Source: Planctomycetota bacterium (GTDB lineage: Bacteria; Planctomycetota; UBA1135; GCA-002748355). From it: a DNA stretch of 36,066 bases. Shown piece by piece: positions 15,231 through 27,072 of this stretch. How positions within the stretch are numbered: the stretch's first letter is position 1; each line of letters starts with the position of its first letter. The notes under the pieces are model-generated. The model ran no database searches. It was not told the DNA's origin and worked only from the letters and a program-made list of their open reading frames with translations. The position numbers and the translations under genes are program-made. The stretch spans positions 1 to 36,066 of the forward strand of contig NYZE01000089.1 of NCBI GenBank assembly GCA_002685965.1, written 5' to 3'.

Positions 15231-15347
15231 GGCGAGGATGCTACCCGATTGGGAACGTCCGGCCCCGAAGTAGGCTGGATGCGTTGAGCCGCGTCGACCG
15301 TGATCGTCCTCCACACGCCGGCGGTCTGGCACTACCATGTTCGGCTG

Positions 15348-15911
15348 ATGGCAGCTGATACCAAGTGCTACATCACCGCCGATCAACTGCTCGAGGACTC
15401 CTTCCGTCTTGGCACGCAGGTCTTCGATAGCGGCTTCCGACCGAGCTTCATCGTCGGTGTGTGGCGTGGCGGCACGCCGGTCGGCATCGCAGTGCAGGAG
15501 TTGCTCGACTTCTTCGGCGTGGAGACCGACCACATCGCGATCCGCACATCGCTCTACACGGGGATCAACGAGCGCGCCGCGCAGATCAAGGTGCACGGCC
15601 TGCAGTACATGGTCGACACGATCGATCAGAACGACGGTCTGCTCGTCGTCGACGACGTCTTCGACTCGGGCCAAAGCATCGATGCTGTGGTCACGGAGCT
15701 ACGATCTCGGGCCCGGCGCAACACGCCCAAGGACATTCGCATCGCGACGGTCTACTACAAGCCGGACAACAACGAAACCGATCGCGTGCCGGATTACTAC
15801 GTGCACGAGACAGACAAGTGGCTCGTGTTCCCCCACGAACTGACAGGCCTGACGGCGGATGAGATCAGGGAACACAAGCGCGGGTGCGCCGCGTTCCTGG
15901 ACCGTCTCTAG
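15348..15911 (+). CDS. Phosphoribosyltransferase (hypoxanthine/xanthine type)
   Basis: 187 aa type I PRTase. The PRPP-binding signature LLVVDDVFDSGQSID has its acidic pair at Asp102/Asp103. Upstream is FIVGVWRGGTPVGIAVQELL, the PPi-loop region with RGG, as in the Gpt/HPRT branch. The likely reaction is salvage of a purine base with PRPP in the cytoplasm; the exact base (hypoxanthine, guanine or xanthine) cannot be fixed. ATG 15348 (MAADTKCYITADQLLEDSFR) is preferred to an upstream GTG at 15300 because the domain starts right after it. No strong ribosome site is visible. It ends 7 bases from the convergent kinase-pyrophosphorylase gene. Confidence 0.85.
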   Translation: MAADTKCYITADQLLEDSFRLGTQVFDSGFRPSFIVGVWRGGTPVGIAVQELLDFFGVETDHIAIRTSLYTGINERAAQIKVHGLQYMVDTIDQNDGLLVVDDVFDSGQSIDAVVTELRSRARRNTPKDIRIATVYYKPDNNETDRVPDYYVHETDKWLVFPHELTGLTADEIREHKRGCAAFLDRL

Positions 15912-15918
15912 CGGCGTC

Positions 15919-18900
15919 TCACCATTGGCACAGCGTCTCGACGTGCGCGGCGGAGCCGTCGCGCAGCCAGCCGTCGAGTTGGTGTGGGTCTTTGAGTTGC
16001 TGTCCGCGTGAGCGCGGGACGACGAAGAAACTCGTGTCGATGTCGGCGATGGCCGACATGTCGCCCCACAGCTTCTCGAACTGCGTGACCGGGAAGACAT
16101 CCTCCTGGCCGTGGCCCCAGCGTTTCTTGACGTCCTTCAACGCGATGTAGGTCGGCATTCTCGCCGCGGCCTTGCGCACGGCGTCGTCGACGCTGGCGGT
16201 GTCGCCGAGATCGCCGCGCGTGAGGCCCATGTAGGAGAGGAGCGCGTCGAGGTCGATCCAGGTTGTCAGCGAGTTGTAGTAGGACAGTCCGAACTCATCC
16301 TCTTTGTGCGGCATTGCTAGCCCCTCGATCAAGCGGGGGCGACCGTCGACGCTCGCGAGTCCGCCGCCGCGATCTTCCATGTGGCGCGGCGTCACCTCGA
16401 AGCTCAGACACGATCCACGCTCGATGTGCGTGCCGAGCAGCCCAGGATCGAGGTCTGCGCCGAGTGTGTCGATGTTGTGCAGTAGCAGGTAGCGCAACTG
16501 TGGCCGTTGCTCGAGCATCGCGGTCAGCACGCCGTTGCGCAGCAGGTTCGGGATCTCGAACCAGTGGCCGACCGGATGTATGCACTGCAGCGGCAAGTTG
16601 TCGGTGTAGTCGCTGCCCTCGCCCCCGTCACGCGCCCAGCCGATCAGCGCCGAGCGCAGGCTGTCCTGCACCTTCTGCGCCTGCGTGTCGAGCAGCTGCT
16701 GTGGCGTCTCTTCCCATGCAAAGCGCAGGTCCCGCTCCATCGGCACCAGGCGCAGCCCGACGGCACGGCCTAACGACAGTCGCAGGTGCTCGCGGTAGCC
16801 GTAGTAATCACGGTTCACGAGGTGCTGGGCGATTGGGTCGTGGGTGAAGAGGCTCGTCGTGAACACGTGCAACGGCCTTTGGCCGTGGTCGAGACCGGTG
16901 CGTCGGCTCTTCGCCAGGTGCACCTCGAGAAACGTGCGGTGTGCCCCCGCGAGCCGGCAGAACGGGTTGAGTGCCTTGACGACACCTGCGCCCTGGGTCC
17001 AGCGGCTGCCCGTCCCGGCAGCGAGTGTGACGACCGCGACCTCGCCGGCCGCGAGCGCAGCTTCGCCCACCTTTCGCTCTGCGTCTCGCAGATTGCCGAG
17101 TGCGTCGATCACCTGGCTCGGTTCCGCGTCGCGGATGTCGGTGTGGGCTGGAAGGCGATTTTGTGCGAGACCGATCCGGCCCTCGCGAAGGTCGGCACGG
17201 ATCTCTTCATGGGAGATCCGATCGAAGCCCCCGTCCTCGAGCAGTTGCGACAGCGATGTCGTTCTCTCGGTGCTGCCGGGGCGATCGAGTTCGATGTGCC
17301 GCATGCTGGGAAGCCGCGCGTCGCCGCGCAGCATGGAACATTCGGTACCGCGTTCGTTGATCTCGAAGTCGTAGACGACCGGATCCATCGCGAATGGCAA
17401 GCCGCTTTCCAGGTCGCGCTTGGTCGTGGTCATGATCTCGAGCAGATCCTCCTGCGCAGCTGGTCGGGCGTCCGGTTTGAACAAGAACCCCATGCCGCCT
17501 CCCGTCATGCCGCCGAGCATGCAGAACCCGAGGTAGGCGGCGCCGTGCCGTTCGCGGACGGTGCGGATGACTCTCTCCGTGAACTCGTTGGACGCCCACG
17601 GGATGATCCCCTGGATCGGTCCTTCGAAGTTGTGGCTCGTGGCGGCGCCGATCGCAGCAACGTCGCCGTTCTTCAGCGCGGCGAGGATCGAGGTCAAGAC
17701 GCCGAGGGCTTCCTGCCGACTGTCCCATTCCTGCTGCGAGCGCAGCAGGTACTTCTCGGTCACCATCTCGAGGACCGGGCCAACGTTCTGCGCCATGCCA
17801 CCGTGCACCAGCACTAGGCTGTCCCGAAGCTCGCGCCGGACCTCCGGGTTCGCGTCGTCGTCACCGAGAACGCGGTGACCGGGCAACAGTCTGCCGCGGC
17901 TGATGCCGTATTCGGGGTCGCCGACCTCCGCGCGTTGGCCGGTGATCAGTTTCATCCCGGGCCAGAGACCTCCCGAGTCCTGCCAACCGCCACCGGAACC
18001 GCCGAGCCACTCGCCGAGGATGGCGCGAGCCGCGGCGAGCCGACGTTCGTCTTCCGAGAGGACGCCTTCCATGCTGGTTGTCTGCCCGGTCGCGCGCATG
18101 CACACGGTGATCAAGGAAGCGAGCAGGTTGGTTGACACGGCGAGGCGCGAGCCCTTCGGGATCCCATGCACGTGGCTGACGATCTCCAGACCACGGCCGG
18201 GGCCCGCCATGGTCGCGAGCAGGTCCGCGAGGTCTTCACCTGAGCCCTCGATCCCGGGAGGGACCGTGCCCGACGCGATCACCGCCGCCTTGAGCAGGCC
18301 CAAGTAGTCCTTCGCGTAGTCGAAGACTTCGGCCAGTTCGGTGATATCCGCCGTTGCGCCGAGGTCGACGCTCGTCAATCGAAGCAGCGGCTCGTCGATG
18401 ACCCGTAGGAAGGTCTCGATGGGGGGCTGCGGCTCCCCGTCGCGACCGTGCACTGCCAGGTCGACCGAGACGTTGAGCACCTTCGCGGCCTCGGGGTAGT
18501 CCATGCCGAGGAAGAAGATGTCGCTCCACGCGCTGTGGGTGAGATCCACGCGCACGGGGGTCTGCTCGCGCAGCAGCGGATAGGGCGCGCCGGCCAAGAG
18601 CTCCGGGCGGATGCGCAGAGGCTGGTCCTTGGAGTGATCGATGCTGAACATCCACTGGTTGCCGTGCGAAGACTGAACACTGCGGCGCACCTGGTCGGCC
18701 AGGGTCTGGAAGGCGAGCGCGTGGTAGGCCGCGCTGAGCGCGCTCGAGATCGCGTCGCTGGGTCCGTTCGCTTCTTGGGCAGCGAGGAAGACCAGGATCG
18801 CTTCCTCGAAGCGCCGCGACAGGAGCAGGTCGTAGCCATCGAACGGGATCAGGCCGCGGAGCTCGAGGTCGTCACAGCGCGGCAAGTAGAAGCGGTGGAT

Positions 18901-19086
18901 CGCGGACAGAAAGAACAGCGCGCGGACGCGATGGTAGAGGTTGGTGGTCGCGTGTCGGAAACGGTCGAGGGCAGCGCACTCGTTCAGTAATGCCGACAGT
19001 GTCATGTCCCGGCACGGACGCTCGAGCGGCGTGTTACGGACGTCCGGGTCGTCGGACTCGATGATCGTGATCAGGTGGCTTGTCAT
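15919..19086 (-). CDS. Bifunctional GHMP sugar kinase / UGPase-like sugar-1-phosphate nucleotidyltransferase
   Basis: 1055 aa, two enzymes in one chain. Residues 1-170 are mostly helical and unrecognised. Residues 175-540 match fucokinase-type GHMP kinases: PVRVDLTHSAWSDI (177-190), PKGSRLAVSTN (310-320), the fucokinase hallmark GGGWQD (365-370) followed by GGLWPGMKLI, and the glycine-rich GGMTGGGMGFLF (525-536). The ATP loop is degenerate (usual PxGxGLGSSA). After a linker, residues 685-950 form a nucleotidyltransferase: VTLAAGTGSRW (687-696) with a candidate Lys704, PVGHWFEIPNLL (838-849) and HNIDTLGADLD (870-880), as in UDP-sugar pyrophosphorylases. Expected: sugar + ATP to sugar-1-P, then NDP-sugar, in the cytoplasm. 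FKP/FKGP fusions have the pyrophosphorylase first; here the kinase is first. Start ATG 19086. It is divergent from the Gfo-PfkB-epimerase operon. Confidence 0.85.
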   Translation of the reverse strand: MTSHLITIIESDDPDVRNTPLERPCRDMTLSALLNECAALDRFRHATTNLYHRVRALFFLSAIHRFYLPRCDDLELRGLIPFDGYDLLLSRRFEEAILVFLAAQEANGPSDAISSALSAAYHALAFQTLADQVRRSVQSSHGNQWMFSIDHSKDQPLRIRPELLAGAPYPLLREQTPVRVDLTHSAWSDIFFLGMDYPEAAKVLNVSVDLAVHGRDGEPQPPIETFLRVIDEPLLRLTSVDLGATADITELAEVFDYAKDYLGLLKAAVIASGTVPPGIEGSGEDLADLLATMAGPGRGLEIVSHVHGIPKGSRLAVSTNLLASLITVCMRATGQTTSMEGVLSEDERRLAAARAILGEWLGGSGGGWQDSGGLWPGMKLITGQRAEVGDPEYGISRGRLLPGHRVLGDDDANPEVRRELRDSLVLVHGGMAQNVGPVLEMVTEKYLLRSQQEWDSRQEALGVLTSILAALKNGDVAAIGAATSHNFEGPIQGIIPWASNEFTERVIRTVRERHGAAYLGFCMLGGMTGGGMGFLFKPDARPAAQEDLLEIMTTTKRDLESGLPFAMDPVVYDFEINERGTECSMLRGDARLPSMRHIELDRPGSTERTTSLSQLLEDGGFDRISHEEIRADLREGRIGLAQNRLPAHTDIRDAEPSQVIDALGNLRDAERKVGEAALAAGEVAVVTLAAGTGSRWTQGAGVVKALNPFCRLAGAHRTFLEVHLAKSRRTGLDHGQRPLHVFTTSLFTHDPIAQHLVNRDYYGYREHLRLSLGRAVGLRLVPMERDLRFAWEETPQQLLDTQAQKVQDSLRSALIGWARDGGEGSDYTDNLPLQCIHPVGHWFEIPNLLRNGVLTAMLEQRPQLRYLLLHNIDTLGADLDPGLLGTHIERGSCLSFEVTPRHMEDRGGGLASVDGRPRLIEGLAMPHKEDEFGLSYYNSLTTWIDLDALLSYMGLTRGDLGDTASVDDAVRKAAARMPTYIALKDVKKRWGHGQEDVFPVTQFEKLWGDMSAIADIDTSFFVVPRSRGQQLKDPHQLDGWLRDGSAAHVETLCQW

Positions 19087-19094
19087 CGTGCGCT

Positions 19095-19208
19095 TCAGTC
19101 GACGTTCGTGGTGCTGGCTTGCTTGGCGAGCAGCTCGAAGAGTCGACCGAGGGGTGCGCCGGAGAGGTCCACGAATGCGTTGGGGCAGGCGTTGAGGGCC
19201 GCGGGCAT
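19095..19208 (-). pseudogene. Short ORF or amidohydrolase-like remnant before the kinase gene
   Basis: From ATG 19208 to TGA 19095-19097 the minus strand encodes 37 aa (MPAALNACPNAFVDLSGAPL, then GRLFELLAKQASTTNVD). The CPNAFVDLSG stretch resembles the PNVxVDLSG strand of amidohydrolase-2 family proteins, and the frame is open for 12 more codons upstream (ending GSDLGSTA). It stops 8 bases before the kinase ATG, so it could be a leader peptide translated just ahead of that gene, or a leftover of a deleted upstream gene. No full domain is present. Confidence 0.3.
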
Positions 19209-19430
19209 GGCAGTAGAGCCTAAATCACTGCCGGGTCGAGGTCGTTAGAGCTTCTACGGTTCCTTCGTGGGCCGATCGTTCGCGGCTGCTTGGACTGTCA
19301 CTGTCGAACATGGTCGAACTGCGCTACCCGTCGTCGCTTCGTGTCGTTCGGTGAGACATCAAGAAAGTCGACGGATCCCTGCAAGCGGAGAGAGGCTTCG
19401 CTGCCATCGGATCGGTAGCGTGTGACTGCC

Positions 19431-20801
19431 ATGAAGACGCAACACACGCGACGTGACTTTCTCCACACTTCGGCCGCCGCGGGCCTTGGCCTGGCCACGA
19501 TGGGTTGTGCTGCGGGCACCTGGGGTGGGTCGGGGAAGCTACGCGTGCTGTCGATTGGTGTCATCGGCACGATCGGCGGCACGGACCGTAAGCAGATCCA
19601 CACGCATCCGGACGCCGAGGTGGTTGGGCTGTGTGACGTCGACAGCAACCAGCTGAAGAAGGCAGCCGAGCAGATACCGACCGCGTTTACCTGCCGCGAC
19701 TATCGCGAAGCCTTCGCCTCTCACGCTGACGACTTCGACGCCGTGATCGTGTCGACTCCAGATCACTCGCATGCGCCGATCATGTTGACGGCCTTCCAGC
19801 ACGACAAACACGTGTATGGACAGAAGCCCCTCGTCCATCAGCTCGAAGAACTCGTGATGATGGAGAAGGCGATCGCTACCAAGCCGCACCTCGTTACCCA
19901 GCTCGGCAATCAGCGGATGGTGAAACCCGGTCGACGCGCCGCAGTGGAGATCCTGCGTCAGGGACAGCTCGGCAAGGCGATCGAGGCGCACTGCTGGACG
20001 AGCTCGCCGAACAAGGGACGCTACTTCAACTTCGAACGCCAGCTGCACGAGCCGAGCCAGGCGCCGAAGCATCTCGATTGGAACCTGTGGCTCGGCCCGT
20101 GCGCGGAAGCGCCGTTCCGCAAGGACCTCGCCCCGATCAAGTGGCGCTCGTGGTGGGAATACGGCACAAACGGGCTTGGCGACTGGGGCTGCCATATTCT
20201 GGACGTCGTGCTGTTTGCCTACGACGACCTAGCCTCACCTGTTGCTGTACAGACGCAGTGTGCCGAGTCGGCGGGCGATCACTTTCACGTGCACCCGTGC
20301 CGCTCGAAGATCACCTACGCTGTCGACTCGAACAAGTTCGCCAAGGAGTCGTTCGTGATTCACTACAGCGACAGCAGGCAGCATCCGTCGCGCAGCGTCC
20401 TCGGTTTGCCCGATGACGCCTGGCTCGGCAGCAACAGCACCGTGGTGGTGTGCGAGGGCGGCACACTGGTCCTCGAGGCGAGCGGTCGTCTCGAGATCTG
20501 GCGTGATGGGAAGATGACGCAGGGTTTGAAGATGCCGAACCTCCCGGCGTTCCCGAAGCTCAATCACTGGCATGCCTGGGTCGACAACTGTCTCGGCAAG
20601 AAGACCGAGCTGCGGACGCCGTTCAAGGATGCGGTGCGCATCACCGAGCCTGCCCTGCTCGCCGTCAAGGCGACGCGGTTCCCGGGCGTCGAACTGCACT
20701 GGGACAAGTCCAAGCTCGCGTTCACGAACCACGACGAGGCAACCAAGACGATCGTCAAGCGTGCCTATCGAGGGGGCTTCGCGCCGCCAGCGGTTGCCTG
20801 A
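19431..20801 (+). CDS. Tat-exported Gfo/Idh/MocA family oxidoreductase
   Basis: 456 aa. The N-terminus (MKTQHTRRDFLHTSAAAGLG) carries a twin-arginine signal (RRDFL) and a Cys in ATMGCAAG that could be lipidated. A Rossmann domain begins at LSIGVIGTIGGTDR, then VVGLCDVDSNQL, VSTPDHSHAPIML and VYGQKPL; in the last, the usual EKP is QKP, with the Lys kept. The C-terminal alpha/beta domain has WNLWLGPCAEAPF and GDWGCHILDVVLF, typical of planctomycete members. Expected: NAD(P)-dependent oxidation of a sugar or sugar derivative, folded in the cytoplasm and exported with cofactor. ATG 19431 is preferred to GTG 19422 because it begins the Tat signal. First gene of a probable three-gene operon (11 bases to the PfkB gene). 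Confidence 0.9.
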   Translation: MKTQHTRRDFLHTSAAAGLGLATMGCAAGTWGGSGKLRVLSIGVIGTIGGTDRKQIHTHPDAEVVGLCDVDSNQLKKAAEQIPTAFTCRDYREAFASHADDFDAVIVSTPDHSHAPIMLTAFQHDKHVYGQKPLVHQLEELVMMEKAIATKPHLVTQLGNQRMVKPGRRAAVEILRQGQLGKAIEAHCWTSSPNKGRYFNFERQLHEPSQAPKHLDWNLWLGPCAEAPFRKDLAPIKWRSWWEYGTNGLGDWGCHILDVVLFAYDDLASPVAVQTQCAESAGDHFHVHPCRSKITYAVDSNKFAKESFVIHYSDSRQHPSRSVLGLPDDAWLGSNSTVVVCEGGTLVLEASGRLEIWRDGKMTQGLKMPNLPAFPKLNHWHAWVDNCLGKKTELRTPFKDAVRITEPALLAVKATRFPGVELHWDKSKLAFTNHDEATKTIVKRAYRGGFAPPAVA

Positions 20802-20812
20802 GAACGCACGCG

Positions 20813-21784
20813 ATGGGCTGGCTCGAATCCGCATTCGAACTCGTGGAGCGCGCTCAGGTTGCCGTTTGTGGCGACTTCGCGCTCGACGCCTACTGGGACC
20901 TGGACCAGTCGTGCACGGAGCTTTCGTTCGAGACCGGCAAGGCGGTGCGACGGGTTGTCGCACAGCGTTATGGCCTGGGCGGCGCCGGCAACGTTGCGGC
21001 TAATGCGAGGAGCCTCGGGGCCCGTGGCGTGCGGGCGATCGGGTTGGTGGGCGACGATCCGTTCGGTGCCGAGCTGCGTGCGCAGCTCGAGCGGTTCGGC
21101 GTGGACGTGTCGGGGATGGTCGACGGCGGTGATCTCTGGCAAAGCGTTGTCTACGCCAAGCCGCACGTCAGTAACCGAGAGCAGGAACGACTCGACTTCG
21201 GTGCCGCCAACCGGCTGACGCCGGCGCTGACCGAGGCCCTCGTCGACCAGTTGGACCGAGCGGCGCATGACTGCGATGCCGTGGTCCTCAATCAGCAGAT
21301 CGATGATGGTGTTGCCACCGGCGCGATGATCGAGCGGATCAACGAAGTGATTGCACGGCACCCGGACCGGGTCTTCGTCGTTGATTCTCGTCATCGCGCG
21401 ACGGCGTTCCGCGGTGCGGTTCTGAAGTGCAATGCGCATGAGGCAGCAGCGCTTTGCGGCGCCGCTGGCTCTGACGTCGGGGCGTGCGCACGCAGGTTGC
21501 GCGAATGCACAGGCCAGACAGTGTTCGTGACCTGCGGGCGCGACGGGTTGCTCGTCGCCGACGAGTCGGGCGTGCATGCAGTCGCCGGCGTTGACGTCAG
21601 CGCGCCGGTCGATCCTGTCGGTGCCGGTGATACGGTCGTCGCCGCATTGGCCGGAGTGCTCGGCTGCGGCGGCGATGCGATTACCGCAGCGCGTCTTGCG
21701 AATTTGGCCGCTGCCGTGACCGTGCAGAAACTCGGGACCACCGGGACCGCGACGCCGGGAGAGATCCGCCGGCTGCATTCATGA
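20813..21784 (+). CDS. PfkB-family carbohydrate kinase, heptose-kinase (RfaE1)-like
   Basis: 323 aa ribokinase-fold kinase. The start VAVCGDFALDAYWDLDQ and the glycine-rich GLGGAGNVAANARSLGA resemble the D-beta-D-heptose-7-phosphate kinase (RfaE1/HldE) branch. The family signature DPVGAGDTVVAAL carries the catalytic Asp273 and anion hole GAGD (270-273). VFVTCGRDGLLV precedes it, as usual. Expected: ATP-dependent phosphorylation of a sugar or sugar phosphate in the cytoplasm. It lacks the C-terminal nucleotidyltransferase domain of HldE. It follows the Gfo gene by 11 bases, and its stop overlaps the next start (ATGA at 21781), indicating translational coupling with the epimerase. Substrate uncertain; a heptose or hexose is possible. 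Confidence 0.87.
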   Translation: MGWLESAFELVERAQVAVCGDFALDAYWDLDQSCTELSFETGKAVRRVVAQRYGLGGAGNVAANARSLGARGVRAIGLVGDDPFGAELRAQLERFGVDVSGMVDGGDLWQSVVYAKPHVSNREQERLDFGAANRLTPALTEALVDQLDRAAHDCDAVVLNQQIDDGVATGAMIERINEVIARHPDRVFVVDSRHRATAFRGAVLKCNAHEAAALCGAAGSDVGACARRLRECTGQTVFVTCGRDGLLVADESGVHAVAGVDVSAPVDPVGAGDTVVAALAGVLGCGGDAITAARLANLAAAVTVQKLGTTGTATPGEIRRLHS

Positions 21785-23043
21785 GTGCCCCGAACATCCG
21801 CATCACGCTCGAACGCACTCGCTGCTACCTCACCGAAGTACTGTTGCCGTTCTGGATCGATCGTGCCCCGGATCCAGACTTCGGTGGCTTCCTGACCTAC
21901 TTCGACGGCGCCGGCAGGCCGACCGGGGAAACGGCCAAGACCTTCCTGATGCAGGTGCGCACGCTCTACACGATGGCGAGCGCACACCGCGCCGGGTACG
22001 GCGGCGGGCGCTGCGCCGAACTGGCGCACGAGGCGGCGCGCTTCCTGATCGACCACTACTGGGACGACGAGCACGGTGGCTGGTATTGGAGTGCGGACCG
22101 GCACGGGCGACCGACCTCTACCGGCAAGATCGGCTACGGCCAGTGCTTCGCGATGTATGCCTTCGGTGAGTATCACTTGGCGACCGGCGTCGCAGAGGGT
22201 CGTGATGCGATGGAACGCACGCTGGCGGTGGTCGAGGAGCGCATGGTCGACCGCGAGCGTGGCGGCTACTTCGAGATCATGCAGCGCGACTTTCAGCCCG
22301 AGCGTCCCGGCCGGCACGGCGGCGACCGCAAGAGCTTCGACGTGCACATGCACATGATGGAGGCGCTGACCAAGGTATTCGAGGTCACCGGCGACGCCGC
22401 CCATCGGGCCCGCTTGGTCGAGGTCATCGACCTGATCGTCGCCAAGATGCTCGATCCAACCCACGGCACGGGCATCCAGCAGTTCTCGCTCGACTTCGAG
22501 CCGTTGCCGTCGATCGAGTTCGACGTGCGGTGGGGGCGCGACGCCGATGCCGAGGCAAAGCCGATCGATGTCACGTCGTACGGCCACAACGTCGAGTTCG
22601 CCTGGCTTCTACAAGTGGCGGCCGTCACGCTCGGCATGCCCAGCCAGCGTTACGCCGACGTCTGCACCAAGCTCTACGCGCACTGCCTGCGGTTCGGCAT
22701 CGATGCGGAATACGGCGGCGTCTACATCGAGGGCAAGATCGACGCCGTACCCGCCGATCGTGAAAAGCAGTTCTGGCAGCAGGCCGAGGTGATGGTCGGG
22801 ATGCTTGATGCATGGACCTTGCTCGGCGATCCGAGGTACTTCGACGCCTTCGAGAACGTGCACGCCTTCGTCTTCGACAAGTTTGTCAACCTGCCGGCCG
22901 GTGGCGAATGGCGTGCGCTTGTCGATCGCGAGGGGGCACCGGTGTGGGACTACCTCGGTGATGCCTGGAAGATCAACTACCACACGGTGCGCGCGATGAT
23001 CGAAGTCGTGCGGCGACTCACGGCGCGACTGGAGACGGTGTAG
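21781..23043 (+). CDS. AGE-family sugar 2-epimerase/isomerase (cellobiose/mannose 2-epimerase type)
   Basis: 420 aa, the length of the (alpha/alpha)6-barrel AGE superfamily. The catalytic-His blocks are all present: SFDVHMHMMEAL (His189/His191), SYGHNVEFAWLL (His269), QFWQQAEVMVGM and KINYHTVRAM (His401). This pattern is closer to cellobiose 2-epimerase and mannose isomerase/epimerase than to N-acetylglucosamine 2-epimerase. Expected: interconversion at C2 of a free sugar or the reducing end of a disaccharide, in the cytoplasm; no signal peptide is present. ATG 21781 overlaps the upstream TGA. Together with the PfkB kinase it would provide an epimerised, phosphorylated sugar, perhaps for the kinase-pyrophosphorylase transcribed in the opposite direction. 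Confidence 0.9.
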   Translation: MSAPNIRITLERTRCYLTEVLLPFWIDRAPDPDFGGFLTYFDGAGRPTGETAKTFLMQVRTLYTMASAHRAGYGGGRCAELAHEAARFLIDHYWDDEHGGWYWSADRHGRPTSTGKIGYGQCFAMYAFGEYHLATGVAEGRDAMERTLAVVEERMVDRERGGYFEIMQRDFQPERPGRHGGDRKSFDVHMHMMEALTKVFEVTGDAAHRARLVEVIDLIVAKMLDPTHGTGIQQFSLDFEPLPSIEFDVRWGRDADAEAKPIDVTSYGHNVEFAWLLQVAAVTLGMPSQRYADVCTKLYAHCLRFGIDAEYGGVYIEGKIDAVPADREKQFWQQAEVMVGMLDAWTLLGDPRYFDAFENVHAFVFDKFVNLPAGGEWRALVDREGAPVWDYLGDAWKINYHTVRAMIEVVRRLTARLETV

Positions 23044-23187: not shown

Positions 23188-26100
23188 ATGCGTTTGACCA
23201 CGCTTTTTCAGGCCGTCTGCCTTGTCGCGACGATCTCCCAATCCACCGCCGCGCAGGCGTTGGAGCGCGAACTCCTGGCGCTCGGTTCTGCAAAGCTTGC
23301 GGCGGCGGCGCGCGCGCAGGGCGATGCCAAGCGCGGTGCGGTGGTCTTCTTTCAGAAGCGACTCAACTGCACGCGGTGTCACGTTCCCGATGCGAAGGTT
23401 CATCGGCTCGGTCCGGATCTCACCGAGCTCGCCAGCGATACGACCGACGTCTACCTGGTCGAGTCGATCCTCACTCCGTCCAGGGTCATCCGCAAGGGCT
23501 TCGAGCACATGGTGCTGGAGACCGAGGAAGGCACGGTCACGGGCATGCTCGCCCGGGAGACCGCAACGGAGCTGGTGATTCTGGACGCGGCGCGTGACTA
23601 CAAGGAGGCTCGCTTCAAGAAGTCGAAGCTCGAAGAGTTCTTTCGCGACAGCGCTTCAAGCATGCCGTCGGGCCTCGTCAACCCGCTGACGAGTCAGCAG
23701 CAGTTCCTCGACCTCGTGCGCTATCTGATCGAGATCCGCGACGGTGGCAAGACCCGCGCCGACGAGTTGGAACCCGATCCATCGCTGTATGCCGAGCGTC
23801 CGTTGCCCGCCTACGAGAACGACATCGACCATGCCGGCATGATCCGAGCTTGGAACGAAGATGCATTCAAGCGGGGCAAGAAGCTCTACGGCCTTTCATG
23901 CAGCAACTGCCACGGCACCAGAGGCGAGCCGGGCTCGCTGCCGACGTCGTTGAAGTTCTGGTCGGGTGAGTTCAAGAACGGCAACGATCCCTATGTCATG
24001 TACCGCACGTTGACGCACGGGTTCGGGATGATGACGGCGCAGACCTGGATGGTCCCGTCGCAGAAGTACGACGTCATCCACTACGTCCGCGAGGCCTTCC
24101 TCAAGCCATACAACCCCGCGCAGGTGTTCGCGGTCAGTGATGGCTACCTCGCGAACCTGCCGAAGGGAAAGTCACGCGGGCCCGCGCCATCCAGGACGTC
24201 GCCGTGGCAACGGATGGACTACGGTCCGAATCAGTGTCTGACGCTCGAGATCGGCGACGACGCGAAGAATTTCGCCTACAAGGGCAACGCCATCCGGCTT
24301 GATGCCGGACCCGGAGGCGTGGCCGAGGGCGGCTACTGGATGGCCTACGACTACGACACGCTTCGTGTGGCGGCAGCGTGGACCGGCAAGGGCTTCGTCG
24401 ACTGGAACTGCATCCACTTCAACGGCAAGCACAACGTGCACCCGCGCCTGGTCGGTGAACTGCGGCTCGCCAACCCGACCGGACCGGGTTGGGGACGTCC
24501 GGCCGACGGCAGCTTCCGCGACACACGGCTCGTTGGCCGCGATGGGCGGTTGTATGGCCCACTGCCACGGAAGTGGGCGCAGTACAAGGGCATGTACTAT
24601 CACGGTCCGGACACTCTGGTCGAGTACACCGTCGGTGCCACGCGCGTGCTTGAGATGCCGGAGGTGCAGATCGTCGAGCCGCAGCCGGTGTTCCGGCGCG
24701 TGTTCAATGCCGGCCCACGCAAGACCGACCTCGTGCTACAGGTTGCACATAGCGATGCCGCTGCCAAGCTGACGGTCAAGGGAGGTGTTGCGGTGTTCGG
24801 GTCCGCGCCGCCGAAGCCGGACGCTCTTCTGGTTGGTGACGCATCCAGGTTGAACGGTGGTACGCGGCTCGACGTCACGAACACGGTGGGTCTCAACGTC
24901 GGCGCCGGGGACTTCACGCTGACGGCGCGCATCAAGACCAGACACGACGGAACGATACTCGCGCAGACAACGTCATCGCTCGTGTGGCCACACGACGGGC
25001 TCACCTGGTTCATCCGCAACGGCAAGCTGACCGTAGACATCGGTTGGGTTGGTGCGTTCTCCGGTAACCGAAGAGTTGCAGACGGCAAGTGGCACGACCT
25101 CGCCTTCTGCTATGCCGCGAAGACGGGTACGATCCGGTTCTACATCGACGGAAAGCCCGAGCAACGCACGGGCAAGCTGCGCCGCAAGGCGCCACTGAAG
25201 AAGCCGATCGTGCGCATCGGTTGCACGGCGGAGAACTTTCCGCGGCGTTCGTTCTTTGATGGCACGATCAAGGAGGTTCGGTTCTTCAACTCAGTGCTCG
25301 GCGATGACGAGATCAAGCACCTCGACGGGCAGCGCCCGGCGGCGCATTGGGAGCTCGGGTCGGTTGTGGCCAGCGGCGTCAGTGACAAGACTGGCAACGG
25401 CCACGCCGCGACCGTTTTTGAAGGCAAGAGAGCGGCAGCGCCGAGTCGGGTCGTCGGGTTCACGGTGGCCGGGTTTGCGGGTGACGTCGCGGGCTTCGAG
25501 TGGCGGGCGGACAAGGGCGACCTGAGGCTGAAGATTCCGGCAGGCGCCGAGCCGCGCGCGTTCACGGTGTGGTTTGCGGCAGTAAAGGAAGAGAAGCTCG
25601 CGGCCACAGTTGCCGATGCCGTCGTCATCGACGATCCCGACCAGGATCTGACGGTCAAGACCAAGGGTGGTTCGGCGCGTTGGCCGCACGTGCTGACGAC
25701 ACGCGCGATGCTCGGCAACAGCGATGAACCGTTCGCGATCGACGTCCTCAAACGACCGACCGACAACCCGTGGTTCTGCCGCATGCGGCTGACGGGATTC
25801 GACTTCACCGGGGACGGCGACTCGCTGATCGCCAGCGCCTGGGACGGGAGCATCTGGAAGGTGTCGGGTCTCGCTGCCCTGGACGGGAAGACGACGAAGC
25901 AGTTCGTCTCGCTCACCTGGCGGCGCATCGCATCTGGTCTGTTCCAGCCGCTCGGTGTCAAGATTGTCAACGGTCGCACCTACGTCACGTGTCGCGATCA
26001 ACTGTGTGTTCTGCACGACCTGAACGGTGATGAGGAGATCGACTGGTTCGAGTGCTTCAACAACGACCACCAGGTCACCGAGCACTTCCATGAGTTCGCG

Positions 26101-27072
26101 ATGGGCCTACAGGCGGACGCTGAAGGAAACTTCTACTACGCCAAGTCCGCGCGACACGCCAAGACGGCGATCGTGCCGCACCACGGCACGCTGCTCCGGA
26201 TCAGCAAGGACGGGCAGCGCACCGACATCATCGCCAACGGATTCCGCGCGGCGAACGGCGTCTGCCTGAACCCGGACGGCACGTTCATCGTCACGGATCA
26301 GGAAGGCCACTGGAACCCGAAGAATCGCATCAACTACGTCAAGCCTGGCGGGTTCTACGGGAACATGTATGGCTACCACGATGTCACCGACGCATCCGAT
26401 AGCGCGATGCAGCAGCCGTTGGTTTGGATCACGAACAGCTTCGATCGTTCGCCTGGCGAGTTGCTCTGGGTCGATAGCCCAAAATGGGGGCCCCTGAACA
26501 AGCGCTTGCTGAACCTCTCGTACGGCTACGGCATGGTCTACATCGTTCCGCACGAGACCGTGAACGGTCAGGAGCAAGGAGGGGTGTGTGCCTTCCCGAT
26601 CGAGCGTTTCCCCACGGGCGTGATGCGCGGGCGCTTTCATCCGCAAGACGGTCAGCTCTACCTGGCCGGCATGTTCGCTTGGTCCGGCAGCCAGACGCAG
26701 CCGGGTGGGCTGTACCGCTTGCGCTACACGGGCAAGCCCGTGCACTTGCCGGTCGAGCTAGGCGCGACGAAGCGTGGCGTTTCGGTCACCTTCAGCGGCA
26801 AGCTCGACCCGAAGTCGGCGACGTCGACGGCGAGCTACAAGGTCAAGGTCTGGGACCTCAAGCGCACCAAGAACTATGGTTCCAAGCACTTCAACGAACG
26901 GACACTCCCCGTTGCCGCGGCACGCATCGATGCAGATGGCCGCACCGTGCACCTCGAAATCCCCAAGGTAGGACCGACCTGGGGAATGGAGATCAAGTAC
27001 GAGGTGCGGTCCGTGGCGGGCAAGTGGATCAAGGGCAAGATCCACAACACGATTTACCACCTGCAGGACTAG
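23188..27072 (+). CDS. Secreted diheme cytochrome c / LamG / beta-propeller protein
   Basis: 1294 aa from ATG 23188 (signal MRLTTLFQAVCLVATISQST, then AAQ; an upstream ATG at 23164 adds eight residues). Two c-type heme sites: CTRCH (codons 23368-23382), embedded in a planctomycete heme domain with the following LGPDLTELA, VESILTPSRVIRKGFE and YLIEIRD pattern, and CSNCH (23899-23913) in a second cytochrome domain with Met ligands likely near FGMMTAQTWMVPSQ. A DUF6797-like beta region follows, then a LamG/concanavalin-like domain (about 24880-25330: GAGDFTLTARIKT, DGKWHDLAFCY, FYIDGKPEQRTG, DGTIKEVRFFN). A six-bladed propeller of the membrane-bound-dehydrogenase type follows (about 25750-26740; FRAANGVCLNPDGTF). 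Probable periplasmic redox enzyme for carbohydrates; substrate unknown. Confidence 0.88.
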   Translation: MRLTTLFQAVCLVATISQSTAAQALERELLALGSAKLAAAARAQGDAKRGAVVFFQKRLNCTRCHVPDAKVHRLGPDLTELASDTTDVYLVESILTPSRVIRKGFEHMVLETEEGTVTGMLARETATELVILDAARDYKEARFKKSKLEEFFRDSASSMPSGLVNPLTSQQQFLDLVRYLIEIRDGGKTRADELEPDPSLYAERPLPAYENDIDHAGMIRAWNEDAFKRGKKLYGLSCSNCHGTRGEPGSLPTSLKFWSGEFKNGNDPYVMYRTLTHGFGMMTAQTWMVPSQKYDVIHYVREAFLKPYNPAQVFAVSDGYLANLPKGKSRGPAPSRTSPWQRMDYGPNQCLTLEIGDDAKNFAYKGNAIRLDAGPGGVAEGGYWMAYDYDTLRVAAAWTGKGFVDWNCIHFNGKHNVHPRLVGELRLANPTGPGWGRPADGSFRDTRLVGRDGRLYGPLPRKWAQYKGMYYHGPDTLVEYTVGATRVLEMPEVQIVEPQPVFRRVFNAGPRKTDLVLQVAHSDAAAKLTVKGGVAVFGSAPPKPDALLVGDASRLNGGTRLDVTNTVGLNVGAGDFTLTARIKTRHDGTILAQTTSSLVWPHDGLTWFIRNGKLTVDIGWVGAFSGNRRVADGKWHDLAFCYAAKTGTIRFYIDGKPEQRTGKLRRKAPLKKPIVRIGCTAENFPRRSFFDGTIKEVRFFNSVLGDDEIKHLDGQRPAAHWELGSVVASGVSDKTGNGHAATVFEGKRAAAPSRVVGFTVAGFAGDVAGFEWRADKGDLRLKIPAGAEPRAFTVWFAAVKEEKLAATVADAVVIDDPDQDLTVKTKGGSARWPHVLTTRAMLGNSDEPFAIDVLKRPTDNPWFCRMRLTGFDFTGDGDSLIASAWDGSIWKVSGLAALDGKTTKQFVSLTWRRIASGLFQPLGVKIVNGRTYVTCRDQLCVLHDLNGDEEIDWFECFNNDHQVTEHFHEFAMGLQADAEGNFYYAKSARHAKTAIVPHHGTLLRISKDGQRTDIIANGFRAANGVCLNPDGTFIVTDQEGHWNPKNRINYVKPGGFYGNMYGYHDVTDASDSAMQQPLVWITNSFDRSPGELLWVDSPKWGPLNKRLLNLSYGYGMVYIVPHETVNGQEQGGVCAFPIERFPTGVMRGRFHPQDGQLYLAGMFAWSGSQTQPGGLYRLRYTGKPVHLPVELGATKRGVSVTFSGKLDPKSATSTASYKVKVWDLKRTKNYGSKHFNERTLPVAAARIDADGRTVHLEIPKVGPTWGMEIKYEVRSVAGKWIKGKIHNTIYHLQD

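Follow-up and report, generated by a model that had tools for sequence, protein, structure and literature searches.

A kinase-first fusion of a fucokinase-type GHMP domain and a UDPGP-type pyrophosphorylase in Planctomycetota and other environmental bacteria

A gene in the window (the 36,066-nucleotide stretch of Planctomycetota contig NYZE01000089.1 analysed here) encodes a helical domain, a GHMP kinase of the fucokinase type and a UDPGP-type pyrophosphorylase in one chain, and this reversed fusion of a fucose-kinase-like domain with a UDP-sugar-making one probably converts a free sugar into a precursor for glycan synthesis. The open reading frame begins with ATG, and its domain boundaries (Table 1) were taken from an AlphaFold2 model built with 67 family members as input (mean pLDDT 87.7, pTM 0.89). 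Foldseek searches with the whole model ranked FKP structures first (the fucokinase part of 9iip, TM 0.85 by target length), followed by UAP and UGPase structures. Since the sequence matches agree with AlphaFold and Foldseek, the succession of helical domain, GHMP kinase and pyrophosphorylase is genuine. The kinase-first order of the original prediction is thus borne out by profile matches, by the structural model and by homologues with the same order, and residues 175–540, for which a non-GHMP fold would have undone it, model as an FKP fucokinase fold with the same TM of 0.85. Beyond the motifs in Table 1, the kinase carries GGMTGGGMGFLF at residues 525–536; the phosphate-binding loop, read as PKGSRLAVSTN, spans residues 310–320, and LAAGTGSRW of the pyrophosphorylase occupies residues 688–696.

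Table 1. Features of the fusion gene and of the adjacent partner site, in positions of the window
Feature	Position	Strand	Remarks
Whole gene	15919..19086	-	1055 aa and a stop codon; in sequence, helical domain, GHMP kinase (fucokinase type), pyrophosphorylase (UDPGP type)
N-terminal all-helical domain, residues 1-168	18583..19086	-	Kept across family; without PDB fold match
GHMP kinase, FKP fucokinase type, residues 169-590	17317..18582	-	
PKGSRLAVST phosphate-binding loop, residues 310-319	18130..18159	-	Differs from FKP PKGSGLGTSS; K311-T319 invariant in family
GGGWQD, residues 365-370	17977..17994	-	Q369/D370 = BfFKP sugar-binding and catalytic Q761/D762
Linker, residues 591-611 (about)	17254..17316	-	About 47 residues fewer than most relatives have
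UDPGP-family (UGPase/UAP-like) pyrophosphorylase, residues 612-1055	15922..17253	-	
LAAGTGSRWTQGAGVVK nucleotide-binding loop with K704, residues 688-704	16975..17025	-	
HNIDTLGADLD, UGPase N-x-D motif, residues 870-880	16447..16479	-	
37-codon ORF at usual site of GalU-like partner	19095..19208	-	Tail RLFELLAKQ; candidate remnant, tentative

The fusion belongs to a family that is widespread in environmental bacteria. Scanning GTDB genomes gave 127 confirmed stretches; the best 80 were kept as loci, with best-segment identities of 53–65%. The taxonomic survey of the domain order proposed earlier accordingly returned at least 80 homologues with the same order, fused in every case checked, from seven phyla: Verrucomicrobiota, Planctomycetota, Lentisphaerota, Chloroflexota, Acidobacteriota, Bacteroidota and Sumerlaeota. 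Because full-length homologues with this order occur in contigs of at least 80 species, neither the order nor the motifs reflect chance or an assembly join, and intact homologues from dozens of independent assemblies rule out an artefact of assembly or frame. Within the phylum of the window, 19 of 392 sampled genomes are carriers, with the kinase always in one long frame of at least 889 aa. The fusion was not found in seven other genomes examined from the window's own family; other families of its order carry relatives at up to 72%. This patchy spread, together with a copy on Hymenobacter volaticus plasmid NZ_CP095065.1 (L189:8026-12256), suggests horizontal transfer. The plasmid carries the fusion gene and its usual upstream partner as a two-gene module, around which other sugar genes are absent; its fusion gene is split into two frames (444 + 560 aa), and is therefore either frameshifted or misassembled. 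Of 356 highly conserved columns, the window copy deviates from the family at 13, where its relatives deviate at 0–24; it thus looks functional rather than decaying. Its shortened linker is shared with L084, and the linker of L010 is short too.

The kinase half is homologous to the fucokinase domain of FKP. Residues 175–556 match the FKP model NF009948/PRK13412 in its kinase part only (model positions 613–952 of 974, E = 1.1e-18); the N-terminal GDP-fucose pyrophosphorylase part of the model is unmatched, and the protein scores 66 bits, below the model's cut-off of 721. A phmmer search finds the BfFKP chains 9iip, 5yys and 9iit (best E = 5.8e-9), and in a comparison of family and FKP profiles the kinase region alone aligns (E = 2.4e-24). 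These matches and the Foldseek result uphold the earlier assignment as a fucokinase-type GHMP domain. Membership among HddA-type heptose kinases was considered and rejected: the kinase possesses GW[TS]D (GWSD) and GGWQD motifs in place of the HddA-type GGGTDL, and in a tree of the family with FKP and HddA-like kinases, the family forms a single clade with support 100; its stem is long, and it groups with the FKP kinases, away from HddA. With a support of 58 for the FKPs as one side, the family may be either a sister group of the FKPs as a whole or a branch within them. Structural and mechanistic work on BfFKP assigned active-site roles to R592, W599, D601, E751, Q761 and D762, placement of the metal to S719 and S720, and contact with the C3 hydroxyl of the sugar to T602 (PMC11982464). 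The first six correspond to R179, W187, D189, E359, Q369 and D370 here, none of which varies among the 75 aligned members. The metal-side serines map to S318 and T319, invariant residues that keep the hydroxyls, and the fucose contact T602 is replaced by I190, an invariant isoleucine in the family.

The C-terminal half belongs to a different pyrophosphorylase family from that of FKP. It passes the Pfam UDPGP model PF01704 (residues 845–952, 28.3 bits against a cut-off of 22) and resembles UAP and UGPase structures (TMt ~0.53–0.64, rmsd 5–10 Å, in whole-model alignments), as expected of the UGPase-like domain first proposed. The hallmarks of UDPGP enzymes are conserved throughout: a glycine loop with K704, H841, N871/D873 and a GGG...E921 block. 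No part of the domain aligned to the GDP-fucose pyrophosphorylase half in profile comparison with FKPs. The two fusions are therefore separate, as had been suggested, and the present protein is not an FKP with its halves swapped. The domain shares fold and sequence motifs with the UDPGP family (UGPase and UAP, to which USP is also counted), but differs in being fused to a sugar kinase, in having GHWF for the GHGD motif, and in branching as a clade distinct from the bacterial UDPGP proteins that stand alone. One such standalone protein is encoded elsewhere in the window's genome (L002, G000:C136) and falls outside the fusion clade. UDPGP-type domains are UTP-dependent in characterised families, and by family membership UTP would most likely be the nucleotide here.

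Comparison with known enzymes sets these features in context. Like FKP and FKGP (BfFKP 9IIT, 9IIP; NF009948), the fusion joins a sugar kinase with conserved catalytic residues to a pyrophosphorylase in one chain; unlike them, it reverses the order, has a UDPGP domain and no GDP-fucose pyrophosphorylase/beta-helix domain, and possesses an altered ATP loop, an extra N-terminal helical domain and a GalU-like gene partner. HldE (NCBIfam model NF008454) is a heptose-7-phosphate kinase and heptose-1-phosphate adenylyltransferase, likewise a kinase-first sugar kinase and nucleotidylyltransferase in one chain, so that the kinase-first order in itself has a precedent; its PfkB-type kinase and cytidylyltransferase-type domain are, however, unrelated in fold to the fusion described here. 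Zebrafish DrGKUP also joins a GHMP sugar kinase to a UTP-dependent pyrophosphorylase independently of FKP, but places the pyrophosphorylase, of the bacterial nucleotidyltransferase type, first, and is glucuronate-specific (PMC3938481). All published FKPs are thought to stem from one fusion event, in a 2025 study of FKP evolution that takes in the FUK and GFPP families only and from whose text UDPGP, Planctomycetes and Verrucomicrobia are absent (PMC12732313). No NCBIfam model of its own covers the kinase-first family. A search of non-subscription literature, which cannot prove absence, found no description of the reversed order or of a UDPGP–kinase fusion, and hence no prior characterisation to set against the original prediction. 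The family would represent a second, reversed solution to the problem solved by FKP, built with a different pyrophosphorylase family.

On balance we favour a bifunctional salvage enzyme that takes a free sugar through sugar-1-phosphate to UDP-sugar, a reading we hold somewhat more probable than otherwise. The fucokinase-like domain would phosphorylate the anomeric hydroxyl of the free sugar at the expense of ATP, and the fused domain would join the resulting sugar-1-phosphate to a nucleotide, for which UTP is the likeliest candidate, with UDP-sugar and pyrophosphate as products. An L-fuco/D-arabino/L-galacto configuration is the most probable one for the sugar, which is not necessarily L-fucose; indeed, ‘fucose-like’ extrapolates from FKP, since the sugar contact T602 has changed to I190. 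In most species, a GalU-like protein, its canonical loop lysine usually lost, may serve as a helper subunit and not as a second catalyst. Counted against the salvage enzyme are (i) the lost loop glycines, (ii) the T602 to I190 change, (iii) uninformative neighbours and GH29 distribution, and (iv) the missing partner in the window's genome. A bolder version, to which we give perhaps a minority chance, is an undescribed pathway in which the Arg-for-Gly loop kinase acts on a non-fucose sugar, an unusual UDP-sugar is made, the GalU-like partner is regulatory, and the module has spread horizontally across phyla. The family could reveal a salvaged sugar and a UDP-sugar not yet known, and the enzyme could serve as a one-pot sugar-nucleotide biocatalyst.

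The identity of the sugar also bears on whether the enzyme is simply a differently built functional equivalent of FKP that converts L-fucose (or D-arabinose) to activated fucose. The kinase is nearest to FKP fucokinase by structure, profile and tree, and the counterparts of W599, D601, Q761 and D762 are invariant; nevertheless, we consider this equivalence unlikely. The invariant isoleucine in place of T602 suggests that the sugar may differ from L-fucose, and the UTP dependence of characterised UDPGP-type families contrasts with the use of GDP-fucose as donor by fucosyltransferases (PMC12732313). Nor is there a link to alpha-fucosidase: GH29 enzymes showed no association with the fusion (11 of 24 carriers, 14 of 24 non-carriers), and none was found in the window's genome. 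Finally, the two enzymes coexist in genome G235, where a canonical FKP is found along with the kinase-first one (L168, L115); this suggests that they are not interchangeable and have non-redundant roles. The T602 substitution and this co-occurrence lend support to the earlier idea of a different sugar. The neighbouring genes offered no identification and were set aside as a source of one: across loci, only the GalU-like gene recurs, and GFO/IDH/MocA oxidoreductases do so weakly (6 of 70 neighbours). The window has a divergent cluster (19425–23043) beside the fusion, made up of a GFO/IDH/MocA oxidoreductase, a PfkB kinase and an AGE-type epimerase; the PfkB kinase is closest to the HldE-type heptose kinase, below the cut-off.

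The altered phosphate-binding loop raises the question of whether the GHMP half phosphorylates at all. Both loop glycines are replaced relative to FKP (G715 to R314, G717 to A316), such that GSGLGTSS, retained in the examined FKPs, has become GSRLAVST in 75 of 75 members, as might befit a pseudokinase that senses a sugar or metabolite on behalf of the pyrophosphorylase half. We regard this as improbable: the catalytic base D370, E359, R179 and the metal-side S318/T319 are all invariant, whereas some loss would be expected of a pseudokinase. The loop had initially been called degenerate, a description that does not hold; KGSRLAVST is invariant in 75 of 75 members and the counterparts of S719/S720 are kept, which argues for a rebuilt, selected feature and not decay. 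The family offers a way to probe how much alteration the GHMP glycine loop tolerates.

The sole recurrent neighbour, which did not figure in the original prediction, encodes a nucleotidyltransferase of the GalU-like type (PF00483; YngB is its best match in the PDB, E = 2.8e-35) and lies directly upstream of the fusion, often separated from it by a few bases or overlapping it. Setting aside loci that end at or near the 5′ end of the fusion gene, the partner is present in 75 of 77 loci with room, the exceptions being the window and L058. Genome-wide within the phylum, 17 carriers out of 24 have a partner match (E ≤ 1e-20), against 2 non-carriers out of 24. The segment holding the GalU/RmlA loop lysine is deleted in about 70 of 72 partners (RTLPLQTLVDRDG, e.g. 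L015:8856-9716), and kept in two Sumerlaeota copies (L067 and L072, RQYPASDTVQKAMLPLVDRDG) and in the Hymenobacter plasmid copy. The EKP motif is retained in 72 of 72 sequences and Mg-binding motifs are mostly kept, and we infer a catalytic subunit turned helper. That the enzyme works solely in complex with this protein, the orphan copy of the window being inactive or repurposed, is the least probable reading, in that the strong operon linkage, including the plasmid copy of the pair, is offset by the lack of a partner match in seven of the phylum's 24 carrier genomes (that of the window among them, and some possibly incomplete) and by a window copy whose departures stay within the range of its relatives.

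The N-terminal domain is a further constant of the family, conserved throughout (e.g. QTLADQVRRSVRSVRGNQWMFR in the consensus). Modelled alone, residues 1–168 form a helical unit with pLDDT 89.9, and comparison with PDB folds gave no significant match (best E = 0.84); the earlier remark that about 170 N-terminal residues lack an assignment thus stands, now for a confidently predicted domain. Haemagglutinin matches (E = 0.008 and worse) were taken as noise from helix composition. Equivalence to the helical linker of FKP was rejected, profile comparison with FKPs, linker included, having shown no similarity and PDB folds no match.

Minor observations concern the flanks of the gene. No partner copy was found upstream of the fusion or elsewhere in the window's genome, and a partner hidden in another part of that genome was accordingly rejected. 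The tail of the short reading frame at the usual partner site weakly resembles the partner C-terminus: at the protein level, 1 of 500 shuffles did as well against L059, the nearest relative of the window among those in the trees, with only a few of the ten tails tested standing out, while DNA-level comparison gave no support. With the protein level suggestive and the DNA level unsupportive, we tentatively regard this frame as possibly a partner remnant. On the other side, a convergent phosphoribosyltransferase gene (15300–15911) ends 8 bases from the fusion stop. Beyond the divergent cluster, positions 23194–27069 encode a protein of 1292 aa that combines cytochrome c, DUF6797 and LamG domains.
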